Shown: piece by piece, positions 2,807 through 11,200 of the stretch | Layout of the letters: every line of letters starts with the position of its first letter | Numbering within the stretch: the first letter of the stretch is position 1 | DNA from: a virus | Direction: 5' to 3' (one strand) | DNA: 35,518 nucleotides | Virus record (IMG/VR): IMGVR_UViG_3300007735_000661 | Location: 1-35,518 of that record | Notes under the pieces: model-generated | The model's input: only the letters and a program-made list of their open reading frames with translations | What the model was told of the DNA's origin: nothing | Databases searched by the model: none | Made by a program: the position numbers and the translations under genes

Positions 2807-4894
2807 ATGGCAACCAGAATGCAGCAACGCAGAGGTACTGCAGCGCAATGGACATCAGCAAACCCAGTATTAAATGCTGGCGAAATGGGTTGGGAATCAG
2901 ATACAAATAAATTTAAAATTGGTGATGGCACAAATCACTGGGCAAACTTAGATTATTTTGCCGATATTAATTCCACCGTAAATCCTGCTTTTGGTACAAG
3001 CATTATTTTTGAAGGTGCTACTGCTGATTCTTATGAAACCACACTTCAAGTAACAGACCCAACTGCTGATCGTACAATTACTCTTCCAGACTCAAGTGGT
3101 ACTATTGCTTTAACATCTGATATTGCAGAACTTTCACAAGATGCTATTGATGCTGCTCTTACTGCTGGTACAGGCATAACAAAAACTTATAACGATGCTG
3201 CAAACACATTAACTTTAGCAGTAGATACAACTGTTATTGCTACAAAGGCTGAACTTGCAGAAGTGGCACAAGATTCTATCAATGATGCTCTTGTTGCTGG
3301 TACAGGTATAACAAAAAGTTATAATGATGGAGCAAACACACTGACACTGTCAGTAGATACAACAGCAATTCAGGCTCGTGTAGCAAATGTTTCAGACACT
3401 GAGATTGGATATCTTGATGGTGTAACATCTGCTATTCAAACACAATTAGACGCTAAGTCAACAGCATCAAAAACAGAAACACTTTCAAATAAATCAATTT
3501 CATTAACATCAAATACATTAACTGGAACTACTGCAGAATTTAATACAGCACTTTCAGACTCTAACTTTGTAACTACAGGTGATACTGGTACTGTAACACG
3601 CACTATGATTGCAGATGGCACAATCGCAGATGCAGATATTAATGCTTCTGCTGCAATTGCTCAGTCTAAAATTTCTAACCTAACTACAGACCTTGCAGCC
3701 AAATTAGCACTTGCTGGTGGCACAATGACTGGTGCTATTGCAATGGGAACAAACAAGATCACAGGTCTGGGATCTCCTACAGCAGATGCAGATGCTGCTA
3801 CAAAAGCATATGTAGACGCTGCAACAGCAGGACTTAACGTTCATGCTGCAGTACAGGCTGCTACAACAGCAAATATTACTCTAGCAAGTGCTCTTGAAAA
3901 TGGAGACACACTTGATGGCGTAACTCTTGCTACTGGAAATCGTGTTTTAGTTAAAAACCAAACAGATAAAACAGAAAACGGTGTTTATGTAGTTAAAGCA
4001 TCTGGTGCTCCAGACCGTGCAACAGATTATGATTCAACTCCAGAAGTAGATGCTGGAGACTTTATTTTCGTAGAGGCTGGTACAGTAAATGGAAAAACTG
4101 GCTGGGTACAAACAAATGTTATAACAACTATTGGCTCAGACAATATTGAATTTACCCAATTCTCTGGTGCTGGAACATACTCAGCAGGTACAGGATTAAC
4201 ACTAACTGGAACAACATTTAGTATTAATACTGGAACTACTGTTGATTTGAGTACCGCTCAAACTTTAAGCAATAAATCAATTGCATTAGGATCTAATACA
4301 GTCTCAGGAACAGTTTCTCAGTTTAATGCTGCCCTTACAGACGGAGATTTTGCTACAATTGCTGGTGCAGAAACTCTTACAAACAAAACTCTAACATCTC
4401 CAACATTAACTACACCAGCACTTGGAACTCCAGCATCTGGTGTAATGACAAATGTAACTGGTTTGCCTCTTTCCACTGGTGTTACTGGAACACTGCCAGT
4501 AGCAAACGGCGGTACAGGAATAACATCGCTTGGAACTGGTATTGCTACATTCCTTGGAACACCATCATCTGCAAACCTTGCTTCTGCAATAACAGATGAA
4601 ACTGGTTCTGGATCACTTGTATTTGCATCTTCTCCAACTTTATCAAGTCCAGTAGCAACAACTGCACTTACTCTTAATGCTACAGCAGAACTTAGATTAG
4701 CAGATACAGACTCAAGCCACTATGTTGGTTTTAAGGCTCCAGGAACAGTCTCTACAAATAGAATTTGGACACTTCCTTCAGCAGATGGAACAACTGGACA
4801 AGTTTTGTCAACAAATGGATCTGGAACACTTTCTTGGTCAACTGCGGGTGGTGGCGGAGCAGCATTTAGTGAATTTATGCTAATTGGTGCATAG
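2807..4894 (+). CDS. Tail fibre protein with Mtd-like N-terminal domain
   Basis: 695 residues, ATG start with AAGGAG 7 bases upstream. Residues ~5-45 ([28 protein letters not shown]) match the N-terminal attachment domain of the Bordetella phage major tropism determinant, which is widespread in phage fibres. Then follow one copy of the 39-residue module, two copies of a 37-residue module, the 184-residue block shared with the first fibre gene, and a C-terminal stretch ([36 protein letters not shown]) of a type found in fibres of many unrelated phages. The C-terminus is glycine-rich. It has its own extended -10 promoter and is followed by a non-coding gap with terminators. It is probably a receptor-binding or tail-tip fibre; the division of labour between the two long fibres is not visible. 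Confidence 0.82.
3008..3124 (+). repeat. 39-codon fibre module, copy 4
   Basis: The fourth 117-base copy, here in a different gene. It is closest in protein sequence to the copy at 111-227 ([17 protein letters not shown]). Confidence 0.85.
3128..3238 (+). repeat. 37-codon fibre repeat, copy 1
   Basis: 111 bases encoding [19 protein letters not shown] and VDTT. They align without gaps to 3260-3370. Confidence 0.8.
3260..3370 (+). repeat. 37-codon fibre repeat, copy 2
   Basis: Partner of 3128-3238 ([23 protein letters not shown]). The tandem pair is separated by only 21 bases. Confidence 0.8.
3731..4282 (+). repeat. 184-codon block, second copy
   Basis: Gapless partner of 1053-1604, in the second long fibre gene. 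Confidence 0.85.
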
Positions 4895-4977: not shown

Positions 4978-5008
4978 ACACGCTCTAAACAAGCGTGTTT
5001 TTCTTTTT
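4978..5008 (+). terminator. Rho-independent terminator upstream of the RNR operon
   Basis: A perfect 7-bp stem (ACACGCT with AGCGTGT), a 7-base loop, then TTTTCTTTTT. It separates the fibre transcript from the RNR operon. Confidence 0.75.
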
Positions 5009-5012
5009 AAAT

Positions 5013-5041
5013 TTGTGATATACTTAACACTACTTTATAAT
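5013..5041 (+). promoter_or_regulatory. Promoter region of the B12/RNR operon
   Basis: Two overlapping signals are visible. One is a classical promoter: TTGTGA at 5013-5018, a 17-base spacer, and TATAAT at 5036-5041. The other is TGATATACT at 5016-5024, which fits the extended -10 family seen elsewhere in the window. Either gives a leader of about 40-60 bases before the ATG at 5087. A leader this short leaves little room for a cobalamin riboswitch. Confidence 0.6.
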
Positions 5042-5086: not shown

Positions 5087-7117
5087 ATGTCAGACATCTT
5101 TTCTTTTCGTTTACTAGAAGACTTTGTAGCAAAATATAAAGAAGTACAACCTCCATTTGGCTTTTCAGATGCTGGTTCAAACTCTCTTGGTGAGATTACC
5201 TTTATACGCACCTACTCAAGAATGAAAGAAGATGGCAAAAAAGAAAGATGGTTTGAAGTTTGCAAACGTGTAATTGAAGGAATGTACTCAGTTCAAAAAA
5301 ACTGGGCTAAAGAAAACCGTTTGCCATGGAATGATAATAAAGCCCAAAAATCTGCTCAGGAAGCATATGACCGTCTATTTAACCTAAAGTGGACACCTCC
5401 TGGCCGTGGTCTTTGGGCTTTTGGAACTCAGATGACTATGGAAAAACGTAACTCTGCTTCTTTACAAAATTGTGCAATGGTCTCTACTCGTGATATTGAC
5501 CGTAATGATCCAGGAGCCTTATTTGCTTGGGTAATGGATGCATTGATGTTGGGTATTGGAGTAGGATTTGACACAATAGGCGAAGACAAAGAAATTATTA
5601 TTTCTGCTCCTACAGAACCAGAAAATATATGGGACATTCCAGATACTCGTGAAGGTTGGGTAGACTCTGTAAGAATGCTACTAAACTCATATCTACGTCC
5701 TAACCAAGCCATTCAGAAGTTTAACTATAGCCTTATCCGTCCTCTAGGTGCCCCTATAAAAGGGTTTGGTGGGGTTGCTAGTGGTCCAGAACCATTAAAG
5801 GCACTACATGAAAGAATAGATAAAGTAATTGGCGGTAGAGCAGGAGAAAAACTAGATTCTAGAGCAATAGTAGATATTATTAACCTTATTGGTACCTGCG
5901 TTGTTTCTGGTAACGTTCGTCGCTCTGCTACTTTGGCACTTGGTTTGCCAGGAGATGAAACATTTATTAATCTTAAAAATGCAGAGATATTCCCAGAAAG
6001 AAACTCATATGATCCAGAAAAACCAGGATGGGCATGGATGTCAAATAACTCCATTGCTGCAGAGGTTGGAACAAAGTATGAAGACTATGTTGACTTAATT
6101 GCAAACAATGGAGAGCCAGGATTTATTTGGTTAGATGTTGCACGTAACTTTGGAAGACTTGCAGATCCAGCAGATGGAAAAGATTCTCGTGTTATGGGTT
6201 TTAATCCTTGTGCAGAGCAACCGTTAGAGTCATACGAACTTTGTACATTAGTAGAAGTTCATTTAAATCGTCATGAAGATAAAGAAGATTTCTTACGCAC
6301 ATTAAAATTTGCTTATTTATATGGAAAAGCAGTAACTCTTCTTCCAACACATTGGCAAACCACAAATGGAATTATGCAACGTAATCGTCGTATTGGAACA
6401 TCCTTAACAGGTATTGCATCATTTGCAGATACAAAAGGAATGCCAGCATTGCGTGAGTGGATGGATGAAGGGTATGGAAAAATTCGTCAATATGATCACT
6501 CTTACTCAGAATGGTTATGTGTACGTGAATCAATTCGTGTAACTACCGTGAAGCCCTCTGGTTCTGTATCATTACTTTCTGGCGCTACTCCTGGAGTTCA
6601 TTGGGGTCCTGGAGGACCATTCTATCTTCGTGCCGTAAGGTTTGGAAATACAGATCCTATGCTTCATTTATTTAGAGCAGCAGGATATAAAGTTGAAGCA
6701 GACCTTGTATCAGCAAATACTTCAGTAGTATATTTTCCAATCGCATCTGGACATCCAAGATCTGAAAAAGACGTAAGCCTTTTTGAAAAAATTGGTTTGG
6801 CAGCAACTGCTCAAAAATATTGGTCTGACAATGGAGTTTCTGTAACTTTATCATTTAATAAAGAAACAGAAACTAAGCATGTTGCACCAGCATTACATAT
6901 GTATGAGGGTCAACTTAAAGCAGTTTCTTTCTTGCCTATGGGTAATGAGGTTTATCCACAACAGCCATACAATGAAATAACTAGAGAAGAGTATAACTCT
7001 TATGTTGGTAAAATTGCAAAGATTGACTGGTCTGCAATTTATGATGGAGTAGATAATCTAGAAGCACAGGGTGAGGCATATTGCAGCACAGATGCCTGTG
7101 AAATTAAACTTTATTAA
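5087..7117 (+). CDS. nrdJ: Class II adenosylcobalamin-dependent ribonucleotide reductase
   Basis: 676 residues. It reduces ribonucleotides to deoxyribonucleotides using a thiyl radical made from adenosylcobalamin. The layout fits the monomeric RTPR type (Lactobacillus leichmannii enzyme, 739 residues). LQNC (C129) and ELC (C386) are the expected active-site disulfide pair. NPCAEQ gives the radical cysteine C375 and the acid E377. The C-terminal C-X4-C pair (C666, C671) is the expected shuttle that passes electrons from thioredoxin. All key residues are present and no intein interrupts them. ATG start; the upstream gap holds a terminator and promoter. Downstream, 8 bases with AAGGAG lead into the next gene, so this is the first gene of an operon. 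Function is confident; substrate level (di- or triphosphate) and allostery are inferred from the family. Confidence 0.95.
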   Translation: MSDIFSFRLLEDFVAKYKEVQPPFGFSDAGSNSLGEITFIRTYSRMKEDGKKERWFEVCKRVIEGMYSVQKNWAKENRLPWNDNKAQKSAQEAYDRLFNLKWTPPGRGLWAFGTQMTMEKRNSASLQNCAMVSTRDIDRNDPGALFAWVMDALMLGIGVGFDTIGEDKEIIISAPTEPENIWDIPDTREGWVDSVRMLLNSYLRPNQAIQKFNYSLIRPLGAPIKGFGGVASGPEPLKALHERIDKVIGGRAGEKLDSRAIVDIINLIGTCVVSGNVRRSATLALGLPGDETFINLKNAEIFPERNSYDPEKPGWAWMSNNSIAAEVGTKYEDYVDLIANNGEPGFIWLDVARNFGRLADPADGKDSRVMGFNPCAEQPLESYELCTLVEVHLNRHEDKEDFLRTLKFAYLYGKAVTLLPTHWQTTNGIMQRNRRIGTSLTGIASFADTKGMPALREWMDEGYGKIRQYDHSYSEWLCVRESIRVTTVKPSGSVSLLSGATPGVHWGPGGPFYLRAVRFGNTDPMLHLFRAAGYKVEADLVSANTSVVYFPIASGHPRSEKDVSLFEKIGLAATAQKYWSDNGVSVTLSFNKETETKHVAPALHMYEGQLKAVSFLPMGNEVYPQQPYNEITREEYNSYVGKIAKIDWSAIYDGVDNLEAQGEAYCSTDACEIKLY

Positions 7118-7125
7118 GGAGAAAA

Positions 7126-7581
7126 ATGAAAAGAATGTTTTTATCACTAGCAATTATTGTGTTGGCTTTTATTGGATTACAAACGATAAATAAATCAGAT
7201 AATAGTTGTATTAATCTTTATGTTGATTATGGTCAATTAGATGGTGGCACAAAACTAACAAAGTGTATAGATGCATCTACAAAGACAGTTGCTTTAGATG
7301 TTTTAAAAAAGGCTAACCTTGAAATAGAAGGAACCAAAAAATATGGACTAGGCGTTGTCTGTAGAATAAATAATTTGCCAGATGAAAAGGCAGAGTCTTG
7401 TGAAATAATGCCACCAGAAAAAGCATACTGGGCATTAATCATTAAAGAAAAACAAACGATTCCTTTCCCTAGAAAAGAATGGGGTTGGGGACAACTAGCA
7501 ATAGACCAACAATATTTAAATCCAGGAGATTCATTAGGCTTAGTTTGGACTGGACCTAATGGAGAATTAAGGTTTCCATGA
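7126..7581 (+). CDS. Membrane-anchored transcobalamin-C-terminal-like (DUF4430-type) protein
   Basis: 151 residues. Residues ~4-20 form a hydrophobic N-terminal segment after MKR, so the rest should lie outside the membrane; no lipobox is seen. The body follows the transcobalamin C-terminal/DUF4430 pattern: ALDVLKKA at 56-63, EGTKKYG at 68-74, VCRINNLP at 78-85, a second Cys at 92, PPEKAYW at 96-102, WGWGQLAI at 119-126, and NPGDSLGLVW at 132-141. The CRI...C...PP..AYW signature is typical of secreted actinobacterial proteins of this family. In animal transcobalamin this domain closes over bound cobalamin. Four cysteines (28, 47, 79, 92) could form two disulfides. The start has an AAGGAG site. 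It overlaps the next gene by ATGA. The operon position between a B12-using and a B12-activating enzyme supports a B12-related role, but cobalamin binding is inferred. Confidence 0.65.
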   Translation: MKRMFLSLAIIVLAFIGLQTINKSDNSCINLYVDYGQLDGGTKLTKCIDASTKTVALDVLKKANLEIEGTKKYGLGVVCRINNLPDEKAESCEIMPPEKAYWALIIKEKQTIPFPRKEWGWGQLAIDQQYLNPGDSLGLVWTGPNGELRFP

Positions 7582-7742
7582 AGGTTACATATAAGAAATT
7601 TGATAATATAGTGCAGTTTCCTATACAAAAAAGAAAACCTAAAACTGCTGAATATATACTTCAATTAGCCATAAATCTTGTAGCATTACACATAGCAAAC
7701 AATATTACTATTGATATCTGGCGTTCTTTGACAGGACACTAA
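7578..7742 (+). CDS. 54-aa protein of unknown function in the B12 operon
   Basis: Not recognised. Its ATG overlaps the previous stop codon (ATGA), and its TAA overlaps the next ATG (TAATG), so the frame fits the operon to the base and is very likely translated by coupling. AAGG lies 5 bases before the start. The first 22 residues are basic (KKF, KRKPK). The rest (AEYILQLAINLVALHIANN) could form one amphipathic or moderately hydrophobic helix, too polar to be called a membrane segment. No cysteine or metal motif is present. Confidence 0.65.
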   Translation: MKVTYKKFDNIVQFPIQKRKPKTAEYILQLAINLVALHIANNITIDIWRSLTGH

Positions 7743-8236
7743 TGGTTCATTTAACTCGCATATATACAAAAACTGGGGATGATGGAAAAACTTCTACTGC
7801 TACTAATGAACGCATAGACAAAAGCAGTGATTTAATTGAGGCAATTGGAGCGGTAGATGAAGCAAACTCTGCTATAGGTATGGCAACTGAGTTTCATAAC
7901 GATATTATAGATAGAATACAAAATGATCTATTTGATCTAGGTGCAGAACTTTCTGGTGCACCAACAATCGTAATATCAGAAGCAAGAATTACTCATCTAG
8001 AAAATATCATTGATGACTATAACGAATATCTAGAACCACTTCACTCTTTTGTTCTACCTACTGGTGCTATCCATAATGCAAGAACAATTGTTAGAAGGGC
8101 AGAGCGTCAAGTCTGGAAAATAGAGGGTATAAATCCAAATATTGCAAAGTATCTAAACAGGCTTTCAGACTTATTGTTTGTAATGGCAAGATACCACAAT
8201 AAAGGTAATGAAAAGTTATGGGTTCCTAAAAATTAA
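7742..8236 (+). CDS. pduO: PduO-type cob(I)alamin adenosyltransferase
   Basis: 164 residues. It transfers the adenosyl group of ATP to cob(I)alamin, giving adenosylcobalamin, the cofactor of the reductase encoded two genes upstream. Family motifs in order: TKTGDDGKTS at 9-18 (ATP site), GAVDEANS at 36-43, FVLPTG at 103-108, ARTIVRRAER at 113-122, and YLNRLSDLLF at 137-146. F103 lines up with the Phe (F170 in human MMAB) that removes the lower axial ligand of cobalamin. R114, R118, R119 and E121 line up with the conserved Arg/Glu set. The loop between FVLPTG and the Arg motif is about 5 residues shorter than in human MMAB. The start overlaps the upstream stop (TAATG). It is the last gene of the operon; no terminator follows before the next promoter at 8245. 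Confidence 0.93.
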   Translation: MVHLTRIYTKTGDDGKTSTATNERIDKSSDLIEAIGAVDEANSAIGMATEFHNDIIDRIQNDLFDLGAELSGAPTIVISEARITHLENIIDDYNEYLEPLHSFVLPTGAIHNARTIVRRAERQVWKIEGINPNIAKYLNRLSDLLFVMARYHNKGNEKLWVPKN

Positions 8237-8270: not shown

Positions 8271-11200
8271 ATGTCTAACCCATCAAATTTATATGCAGAA
8301 AAAATATACTCTGAGCACCCGCTAGTTTTATGGGCATTAGATGACACAGTTGATTATAAAAGTTTAATTTCTGAAGCCCAGCGCAATCTTGCAACTTTGT
8401 GGACACCAACAAATGCTACGCTTGCAGCATCTTTTGAAAATCTAAATGAACCATTTGCAGACAGTCATTTGTCAAGAATTAGGGTTAATGTTCCTGTATC
8501 AGAAACTCTTGAGGCATCAATTATTAGCCCCAATATACTTAATTTCAATACCCTTGCAGATCTTGGAACATTTACCATTGGATCATATTTTTATTCAAAC
8601 AGTTTATTTTTACAAACAGTATCAATAGGTTATGAATACACAGATCCATCAACATCAACTATAGTTCAAAATTTAAAAACTTTCACTAGCACACTTTATC
8701 AAAAATGGGGATTTATTTCTGAAACTTTTGAAATTCCAAATGTTTCTGCACAATTAAGACTTGTAATTAAAATTAAAGTTTTTGAGGGATCAGCAACTTC
8801 AGCAGATAATGAATTCTACATAAATGGTATTACTCTGGGGCAGTGGAATGAAGAATTTAATACATATTCTTTAAATGGAATAACAGAAACTACAGTACCA
8901 TCAAGCATAAGTATTTATGGCGGGTATGATGCAGTAGAAGCACAAGCATATGGAGTTGCAGAAGATTCTGGGTACTATATTACTGAAGGTGGTCTAAAAT
9001 GTAAAAATACAGGTATTCCTTTGGTTTACGGTGCAAGCGGAGTGACAAGATTAGAGCCAAACACTGATGCATCTTTAATACTTCCAGGCAAAGGATTTTT
9101 AAATAAAAAAGGGCAGTACAACGACTATACAATTGAGTTCTGGGCAAGAATAGCAGTAAATACATCTACACCATTTAAAATATTTGGACCAATAGCATCA
9201 GAAGATGGATTGTACGTTGAAGATGGATTCTTAACATTAGTTATTGGTGATCAATTTGCATCACATTTCGTTGGTGAGTGGTTTAGGCCAATGCTTATTC
9301 ATATTCGTTTAATTAGAGACTCTGCATCCTTATTAGTTAATGGTGAAGAAGTTTTATCATTATCTTTAGATACCGCAACGCTAACTCTTCCAGCAGAACT
9401 TGACAATAGCGGAGATAGTCAAGACTGGGTAGGATTCTATGCAAGCAATACGGTATATCCTTTTGAAATTGACTGTGTTGCTATATATTCTTATCAGGTT
9501 CCAGTTACAGTTGCAAAGCGTAGGTGGGTTTATGGCCAAGGAGTTGTTTCTGCAGAAGGAATAAACTCATCATATGGAGGAACAACTGCCTTTATAGATT
9601 ATCCATTTGCAGACTATACATCTAATTATAATTATCCAGATTTTGCTGGCTGGGATCAAGGAAGTTTTGACAACCTAGCAACTAGTCAAACAAGTTTAAG
9701 AACACCAGAATATGCCTTACCAGAAATATTTTTAGGAACAAAGACATTGCAAAATCTATATGATGACAATAAAACTGTACAAGATAACGAATCTGGCCCT
9801 ATTATCACCGATAAGTTTTTATCTTTTAGGCCTAACAATACATGGAACTCAGTTGAGTCGTATATTAATTTTTCAAGATTTAACTTATTATCAAGCGAAG
9901 TTGAGAGTTGTTACGGAGTCTTTAGTTCTCATAACCTAGCCTCAAATGAAATATTATTTAAAATATATAATCCACTAAACAACAATTACTTTACAATTCT
10001 TAAAGATGGAAATTTAATCAAATATTCTTTAACCTATAATGGAACTACGCAATTATTGTTTACTTCTAGCGCCATTACCGCCAATAGCCTTTTTGCAGTT
10101 GGATTTAATATAAAGACATTGTCTGAAAAATTTGGCAGCAACGTAAGTTCATTTTTTGGAAATCAAAGTTCATTAAAAATGTATGTGTGTGGAGATGACT
10201 CTGGAGACTACACTTTTACAGGAAGACTTTATTCTATTGGACTAAGTACAACTTTAAACTCTGCAAAAATAACAAATTACATTGACGCAAATGGCTTTAT
10301 TGAATTAGACAAGGGCCAGCAATTAATTGACCATACAGCCAGTTATACAATCCTTCCATCAGAAGCATATGAGAAATATTTCTTAGACATAGGAGTTGCA
10401 GGATATTGGCAAGACTATCTACCACTTTCTTACTTTGCCCAATTTGTAAAAAATAACAGTGGTCAAGAATTTTATGAAATAGATTTTTTACAATTTAACT
10501 TAGGATATCCAACAACAACCACACTACAGCAAGAATCTGGAACATCTTCTTCTTATTACAATACAGAAGGTGCACAGATAAAAAGTTATGTAACATTTCA
10601 ATATGTTGCAGATGGTGCAAACATTCCGACCTCCTTTGCTAATGAGGAGCCACCAGATGAATATAAAGTGCTTGATTTAAATAATTACCAAGACTGGCAG
10701 ACAACAAGATTTGAAATTTTAAATAACACATTGATCTACCCAATCAAAACCATAGACTTTAACAAAATTGCAATTGTATATAGTCTTGAATTTAATAGTC
10801 GTGGAATTTTAACTAAGCCAATTTTATTAAACAAGTTACAGTTGGCTTCTCAAGCATTTAACGATAATTCTTTTAATCCAGTAGGAACAAGGTTTGGAGT
10901 AGACCTATTCCCATATAAAAAGAATGGCATTTATTTTGACTACAAGTCTAAGAATCCATTTAGTATATATAAAGAAAGCACTCCGTACTTATATCTGACA
11001 AAAACATCTGGAATTGAAGTGCGTGGTGAAATAAATATTCTAGAAAATCGTGGATTAAATCTTCCAATTAATAAAGAATTGGCAACAGACTATAAAGTAA
11101 GCGCTATGCAATTATGGCTAAGATATGATCAAGACACGTTTCCAGCAACAGCAACAGAGATTTTTGAAATTAACCATAAGAGTGGAACCCTAAAGTTTTA

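Follow-up and report, generated by a model that had tools for sequence, protein, structure and literature searches.

A phage operon that probably raises the supply of adenosylcobalamin to its own class II ribonucleotide reductase

A four-gene unit at positions 5087–8236 of a 35,518-base virus record in IMG/VR (IMGVR_UViG_3300007735_000661; linear, probably a fragment, and referred to in its whole length as the window) is probably a phage operon that raises the supply of adenosylcobalamin (AdoCbl) to the phage's own class II ribonucleotide reductase (RNR) in B12-auxotrophic freshwater actinobacteria. The genes, with the products predicted for them, are:

5087..7117 (+), RNR gene: monomeric AdoCbl-dependent class II ribonucleotide reductase of the RTPR type, 676 aa
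7126..7581 (+), DUF: exported or membrane-tethered protein with a predicted transcobalamin-type beta-grasp (SLBB) domain, 151 aa
7578..7742 (+), SM: conserved micropeptide, 54 aa
7742..8236 (+), ATR: PduO-type cob(I)alamin adenosyltransferase, 164 aa

A gap of 8 bases separates RNR from DUF, DUF and SM overlap by 4 bases (ATGA), and SM and ATR overlap by 1 base, which agrees with the compact unit that had been claimed in a preliminary description of this DNA.

In the model that we favor, the N-terminal hydrophobic helix of DUF would anchor the protein in the membrane and leave the transcobalamin-type domain outside, so that at the cell surface DUF could bind cobamide, which is scarce, and hand it to a host importer, SM perhaps serving as its small membrane partner. 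Host reductases would then yield cob(I)alamin, which the phage ATR would adenosylate with ATP, and the phage RTPR would use the resulting AdoCbl to reduce ribonucleoside triphosphates (NTPs) to deoxyribonucleoside triphosphates for phage DNA. The host would take care of import and corrin reduction and would probably also provide the reductant, so that the phage would add capacity and make no B12 itself. For the more specific proposal, that DUF and SM constitute a virus-encoded vitamin-scavenging surface receptor with a micropeptide partner, which feeds cobamide to the host importer, we put the chances at about even.

The linkage of the genes was followed across relatives. Scans of IMG/VR recovered 235 relatives of ATR, 110 of DUF and 282 of a second adenosyltransferase type akin to acI enzymes (ATR-B); the best 80 of each were kept, and 134 loci were left after removal of redundancy. 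The order RNR-DUF-SM-ATR is found in 62 of these loci, which answers the question, raised in the preliminary description, of whether the genes are conserved together in any relative. Another 32 loci have DUF-SM-ATR, four have RNR-DUF-SM and three have the altered order RNR-ATR-DUF (L374, L381 and L383), and ATR stands alone in 28, many of which are cut by contig ends. The adjacency of ATR and DUF is far beyond chance, because 50 of the 52 distinct DUFs that were fetched by DUF alone and have enough flanking sequence adjoin ATR; RNR adjoins 37 of the 52, and at least one of the two enzymes adjoins every one of them. When loci are fetched by ATR instead, DUF adjoins it in 47 of 58.

This linkage persists when one ATR lineage is exchanged for another, when the RNR diverges and when the genes are reordered or relocated. 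ATR-B fills the same slot in L101, L111, L116, L123 and L126, and in L123 the linkage is kept with an RNR that is just 28% identical. In L080, L127–L139 and L287, the DUF-SM-ATR block has been relocated next to DnaE/RecA-like genes, and a divergent RTPR is encoded elsewhere in such phages where larger records were searched (G001–G003); altogether, an RTPR is encoded in 21 of 28 ATR-bearing virus records. These observations bear on the explanation that genes of nucleotide metabolism have drifted into one neighborhood without a joint function, the ligand of DUF being something other than cobamides. Such drift would be in keeping with the origin of most cassette copies from related phages and with the many ligands of beta-grasp domains, a caution already voiced by a reviewer (PMC1796856), but it is hard to reconcile with a linkage that persists through all four kinds of change and with the finding that no DUF copy with informative flanks stands apart from both enzymes, and we regard it as quite unlikely. 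As a separate observation, some phages have a gene of the S-adenosylmethionine-decarboxylase type next to the DUF-SM-ATR block or close to it; in L290 (5211–5627) it is confirmed by PF02675, and in L113 (1264–1644) a gene looks similar by eye.

The first enzyme of the unit is, as judged from its sequence, a monomeric class II RTPR with a complete set of catalytic cysteines. Its alignment with the RTPR of L. leichmannii (1L1L; E 5.9e-94) retains C119, C408, E410, C419, C731 and C736 (1L1L numbering) in the contexts SLQNC, NPCAEQ, ELC and YCSTDAC, and since all six residues are identical, the full cysteine set and NPCAEQ motif named in the preliminary description are borne out. The protein also matches phrog_367 (3e-142), the insertion domain PF21995 (45.7 bits; cut-off 27) and the alpha domain PF17975 (111.7 bits; cut-off 26.4), and it scores 338.0 bits (E 1e-100) on TIGR02505, just under an equivalog cut-off of 340.05 on either side of which its relatives fall. 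AdoCbl-dependent reduction of NTPs would be the activity to be expected of it. RNRs of this family, with the same AdoCbl dependence, are well known in phages: a related RNR occurs in 1,190 isolated-phage records, including Mycobacterium phage Gaia (61% identity) and Actinomycetia phage DSL-LC01 (60%), in neither of which does DUF, SM or ATR lie next to the RNR. Further carriers of monomeric class II RNRs (RTPR/NrdJm) are Thermus phage phiFa, the marine RTPR virioplankton (PMC10547690), which is taken to depend on host B12, and the cobaviruses (PMC6775973).

The last enzyme of the unit is assigned by its sequence to the PduO-type cobalamin adenosyltransferases. It scores above both curated family cut-offs (PF01923, 165 bits with a cut-off of 24; TIGR00636, 152.7 bits with a cut-off of 108) and contains the motifs GDDGKT, RRAER and NRLSDLLF, in line with the complete PduO motifs reported earlier, and the closest solved structure is the ATR of M. 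tuberculosis (2g2d; 1.4e-33). ATP and corrin motifs are common to the window ATR and the PduO-type enzymes of M. tuberculosis (2g2d/6wgs), human (MMAB, 2idx) and L. reuteri (PduO, 3ci1), and the phage protein would accordingly be expected to adenosylate cob(I)alamin; it differs from these enzymes in its length of 164 aa, its shortened loops and its position in a phage clade of its own, which is separate and supported (100/95) in the ATR tree. A viral "cobA" adenosyltransferase has earlier been listed as an auxiliary metabolic gene in wastewater viruses, without such a gene context (PMC11183165). In other phages (L386–L407), ATRs from several divergent lineages are found with neither DUF nor SM; of these phages, G393–G395 and G399 encode an RTPR at a great distance from the ATR, and none was found in G396–G398. 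Metagenome-assembled genomes labeled Bifidobacterium breve (L201, L207 and L236 in genome_contigs) contain ATRs that group with those of acI/Planktophila, and the labels look wrong; two of these ATRs are included in the tree.

The cassette, conserved in many uncultured viruses, appears to be absent from isolated phages. A tblastn search found no DUF in the 1,190 isolated-phage records that contain a related RNR, and neither DUF nor SM has a match in 50,697 phage records. The 15 tblastn matches to ATR among isolated phages include none from the phage group that carries the RNR cassette; they are weak (at most 42% identity), lie for the most part on short contigs without annotation and resemble host-type genes. 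A prophage origin of the cassette, or its presence in a known isolate, was therefore rejected.

The predicted structure of DUF points to the cobalamin-binding fold known from human transcobalamin. An AlphaFold2 model built from 43 diverse homologues without templates has a pLDDT of 88, and a first model built from 37 close homologues, with a pLDDT of 68, gave the same top fold matches. When the better model is compared with solved structures by VIA-align, the 15 best rows are all cobalamin carriers (transcobalamin, intrinsic factor, haptocorrin and isolated transcobalamin beta-domains) or the R. gnavus homologue 3u7z, with Z of 10.4–11.2 over about 95 aligned residues, and the next best, unrelated fold reaches Z 7.1. 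The model comprises E28-36, E42-49, H56-62, the hairpin E67-70/E74-81, E102-107 and E136-141, with a short strand 4, and thus shows the five-stranded beta-grasp core, single helix and post-helix beta-hairpin of the transcobalamin-like SLBB clade, of which the hairpin is the defining mark (PMC1796856). Of the SLBB signature glycines, G74 before strand 3 is invariant, and a glycine after strand 2 is present in some members only. Those elements of DUF that match the B12-contacting parts of transcobalamin are more conserved than the rest (rank 2 among 126 circular shifts). The N-terminal hydrophobic segment (median KD17 hydropathy 2.39), which forms a helix at 2-22 in the model, marks DUF by its sequence as a secreted or cell-surface protein, as is characteristic of the same clade, bacterial members of which have been proposed to be B12 scavengers (PMC1796856). 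DUF thus shares with the SLBB/DUF4430 clade its predicted beta-grasp core, post-helix hairpin and export, and differs in having no alpha/alpha toroid domain, in its four invariant cysteines (28, 47, 79 and 92) and in the partner gene for a 54-aa micropeptide. Because there is a solved structure of an isolated transcobalamin beta-domain with cyanocobalamin (5np4), a beta-domain alone can bind in principle, and the modeled fold suggests that DUF may bind cobalamin. The family has been found only in viruses in this analysis (84,980 prokaryote genomes scanned with a pattern gave 93 matches, none of which was confirmed), and it is likely to be a family of cobamide binders. A fold search against viral predicted structures returned nothing significant. 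The transcobalamin C-terminal pattern described earlier is strongly supported at the level of predicted structure.

SM, to which the preliminary description had given no role despite its constant pairing with DUF, directly follows DUF in essentially every copy, and an SM-like frame can be read in four loci where automatic calling of open reading frames (ORFs) had missed it. Its members range from 45 to 60 aa, and 31 diverse ones share a K/R-rich N-terminus, a hydrophobic stretch and a near-invariant C-terminal tail, IxVWRSxTGH, that ends at the last residue; the family has no match in Pfam or NCBIfam. The hydropathy of SM is borderline (median 1.64; 16 of 31 members at or above 1.6, compared with 26% of control ORFs). 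SM was accordingly rejected as a clear transmembrane protein, and it is plausible that it forms a membrane helix whose tail faces outward.

The outward-facing, membrane-tethered appearance of DUF and SM would also suit a different role, in which the two enzymes form an AdoCbl-RNR pair and DUF and SM exclude superinfecting phages by capping or blocking a protein on the host surface, for example a B12 importer that is used as a phage receptor; DUF and SM would then accompany the enzymes only because they act on the same B12 system. Exclusion is a frequent task of small phage proteins that are exported. Purifying selection acts on all four genes (median dN/dS of 0.05 for ATR, 0.09 for RNR, 0.25 for DUF and 0.23 for SM), which speaks for the favored model; the faster evolution of DUF relative to the enzymes (0.25 versus 0.05–0.09) would fit a role in exclusion. 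However, the fold of DUF matches specifically cobalamin binders, its conserved residues fall in those parts with which transcobalamin touches B12, and it remains with ATR or RNR through rearrangements, and this role is unlikely. It is also conceivable that DUF stores B12 for the infected cell, or sequesters it from competitors, without feeding an importer. The fold and linkage evidence would be equally compatible with storage, and the cassette encodes no importer, but the pairing with ATR and RNR points to use rather than storage, and we consider this alternative quite improbable.

The hosts are probably acI/Nanopelagicales, which are among the commonest freshwater actinobacteria and are regarded as B-vitamin-dependent (PMC7527133); for the phage of the window itself, the assignment is drawn from its relatives. 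WhiB, a regulator of actinobacteria and actinophages, is encoded in 21 of 30 relatives, and the best 80 matches of ATR-B among cellular ATRs are overwhelmingly from Nanopelagicales/acI or freshwater-type actinobacteria (70–76% identity). In L374, a WhiB gene (7420–7731) lies two genes away from the cassette. Class II NrdJ is present in 6/6 sampled acI genomes, class I RNR is rare (3/61 over the cut-off), CbiC, which belongs to corrin synthesis, is found in 0/61, a host ATR is encoded in 39/41, and DUF4430 is found in 0/81 genomes of the order Nanopelagicales. The possibility that the phage ATR makes up for a host without ATR was rejected on the basis of the count of 39/41.

These host genomes also bear on the claim that the unit is a self-contained route that frees the phage from the cofactor state of its host. 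The cassette contains no gene for corrin synthesis, no recognized importer or cob(II)alamin reductase, and it would stay dependent on imported B12. The unit is not self-contained, since it is the host or the water that supplies import, cobalt reduction and B12, and because the hosts already have ATR and class II RNR and have no CbiC, the claimed freedom is not supported. The part of the earlier interpretation that stands is the conserved unit, which combines RNR and ATR with a protein whose predicted fold is that of the transcobalamin beta-domain; independence from the host cofactor supply is not supported.

Several findings weigh against a cassette for capture and activation of B12. No transporter is encoded in it, and since acI hosts have an ATR of their own, the need for a phage ATR is not obvious. 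No RTPR was found in 7 of the 28 ATR-bearing records, which are possibly fragments; RNR, DUF and SM occur without ATR in L109, L300 and L329, and ATR occurs without DUF in L066 and L075–L079. The ligand of DUF is the main uncertainty, for a common beta-grasp fold is no proof of it. DUF has no match to any Pfam family, and PF14478 (DUF4430), to which the preliminary description had likened it, has no match at the gathering score in 37 members or in two divergent ones; the protein is therefore not filed as DUF4430. Profile-profile support for homology to DUF4430 is modest: hhalign with the raw alignment gives a probability of 63% and a score of 32.4, compared with a 95% null of 16.9 and one degenerate shuffle that scores higher, and after stripping of gap columns the score is 19.6–20.0, near the top of the null only. 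Because a sequence search of the PDB also gave no match, proof of DUF4430 membership by sequence alone failed.

Phages with a B12-dependent RNR are common, and this operon offers a concrete and testable answer to the question of how they obtain the cofactor in bacteria that cannot synthesize it. These viruses, it suggests, collect a vitamin in short supply and activate it to serve their own replication; more generally, viruses may carry vitamin-capture proteins, and viral replication may be tied to the B12 supply in freshwater bacterioplankton. If the reading of DUF and SM as a receptor is true, this would be the first viral pathway that takes one cofactor from capture through activation to use, and its carriers would be phages that infect abundant B12-auxotrophic freshwater bacteria. 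In agreement with the earlier statement that no cassette of RNR, transcobalamin-like protein and ATR had been described, an open-licence library of 5.39 million papers, a scope that leaves out most subscription papers, yielded no account of such a cassette and none of a transcobalamin-like protein in a phage. B12 goes unmentioned in two central papers on acI and freshwater phages, and a 2023 paper on marine RTPR viruses merely raises the possibility of virus-enhanced B12 uptake (PMC10547690).

The unit sits amid virion genes, which make up most of the gene content of the window (portal, prohead protease, major head protein and tape measure), and the first gene on its 3′ side begins at 8271. 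A cobalamin riboswitch has no Rfam match at gathering thresholds anywhere in the window. Two candidate signals lie upstream of the unit:

4978..4998 (+), candidate intrinsic terminator: 7-bp stem ACACGCT/AGCGTGT followed by a T-run
5013..5041 (+), promoter-like site ahead of the RNR gene: TTGTGA-17-TATAAT, 10/12 matches, suggestive only

The number of terminator-like and promoter-like sites in the window is not above that in shuffled sequence; the stem of the candidate terminator is kept or lengthened at the same place in several aligned relatives. Further upstream, positions 2807–4894 encode a tail-fibre-like protein with an Mtd_N domain, the N-terminus of the major tropism determinant (PF18454; 5.9e-13).

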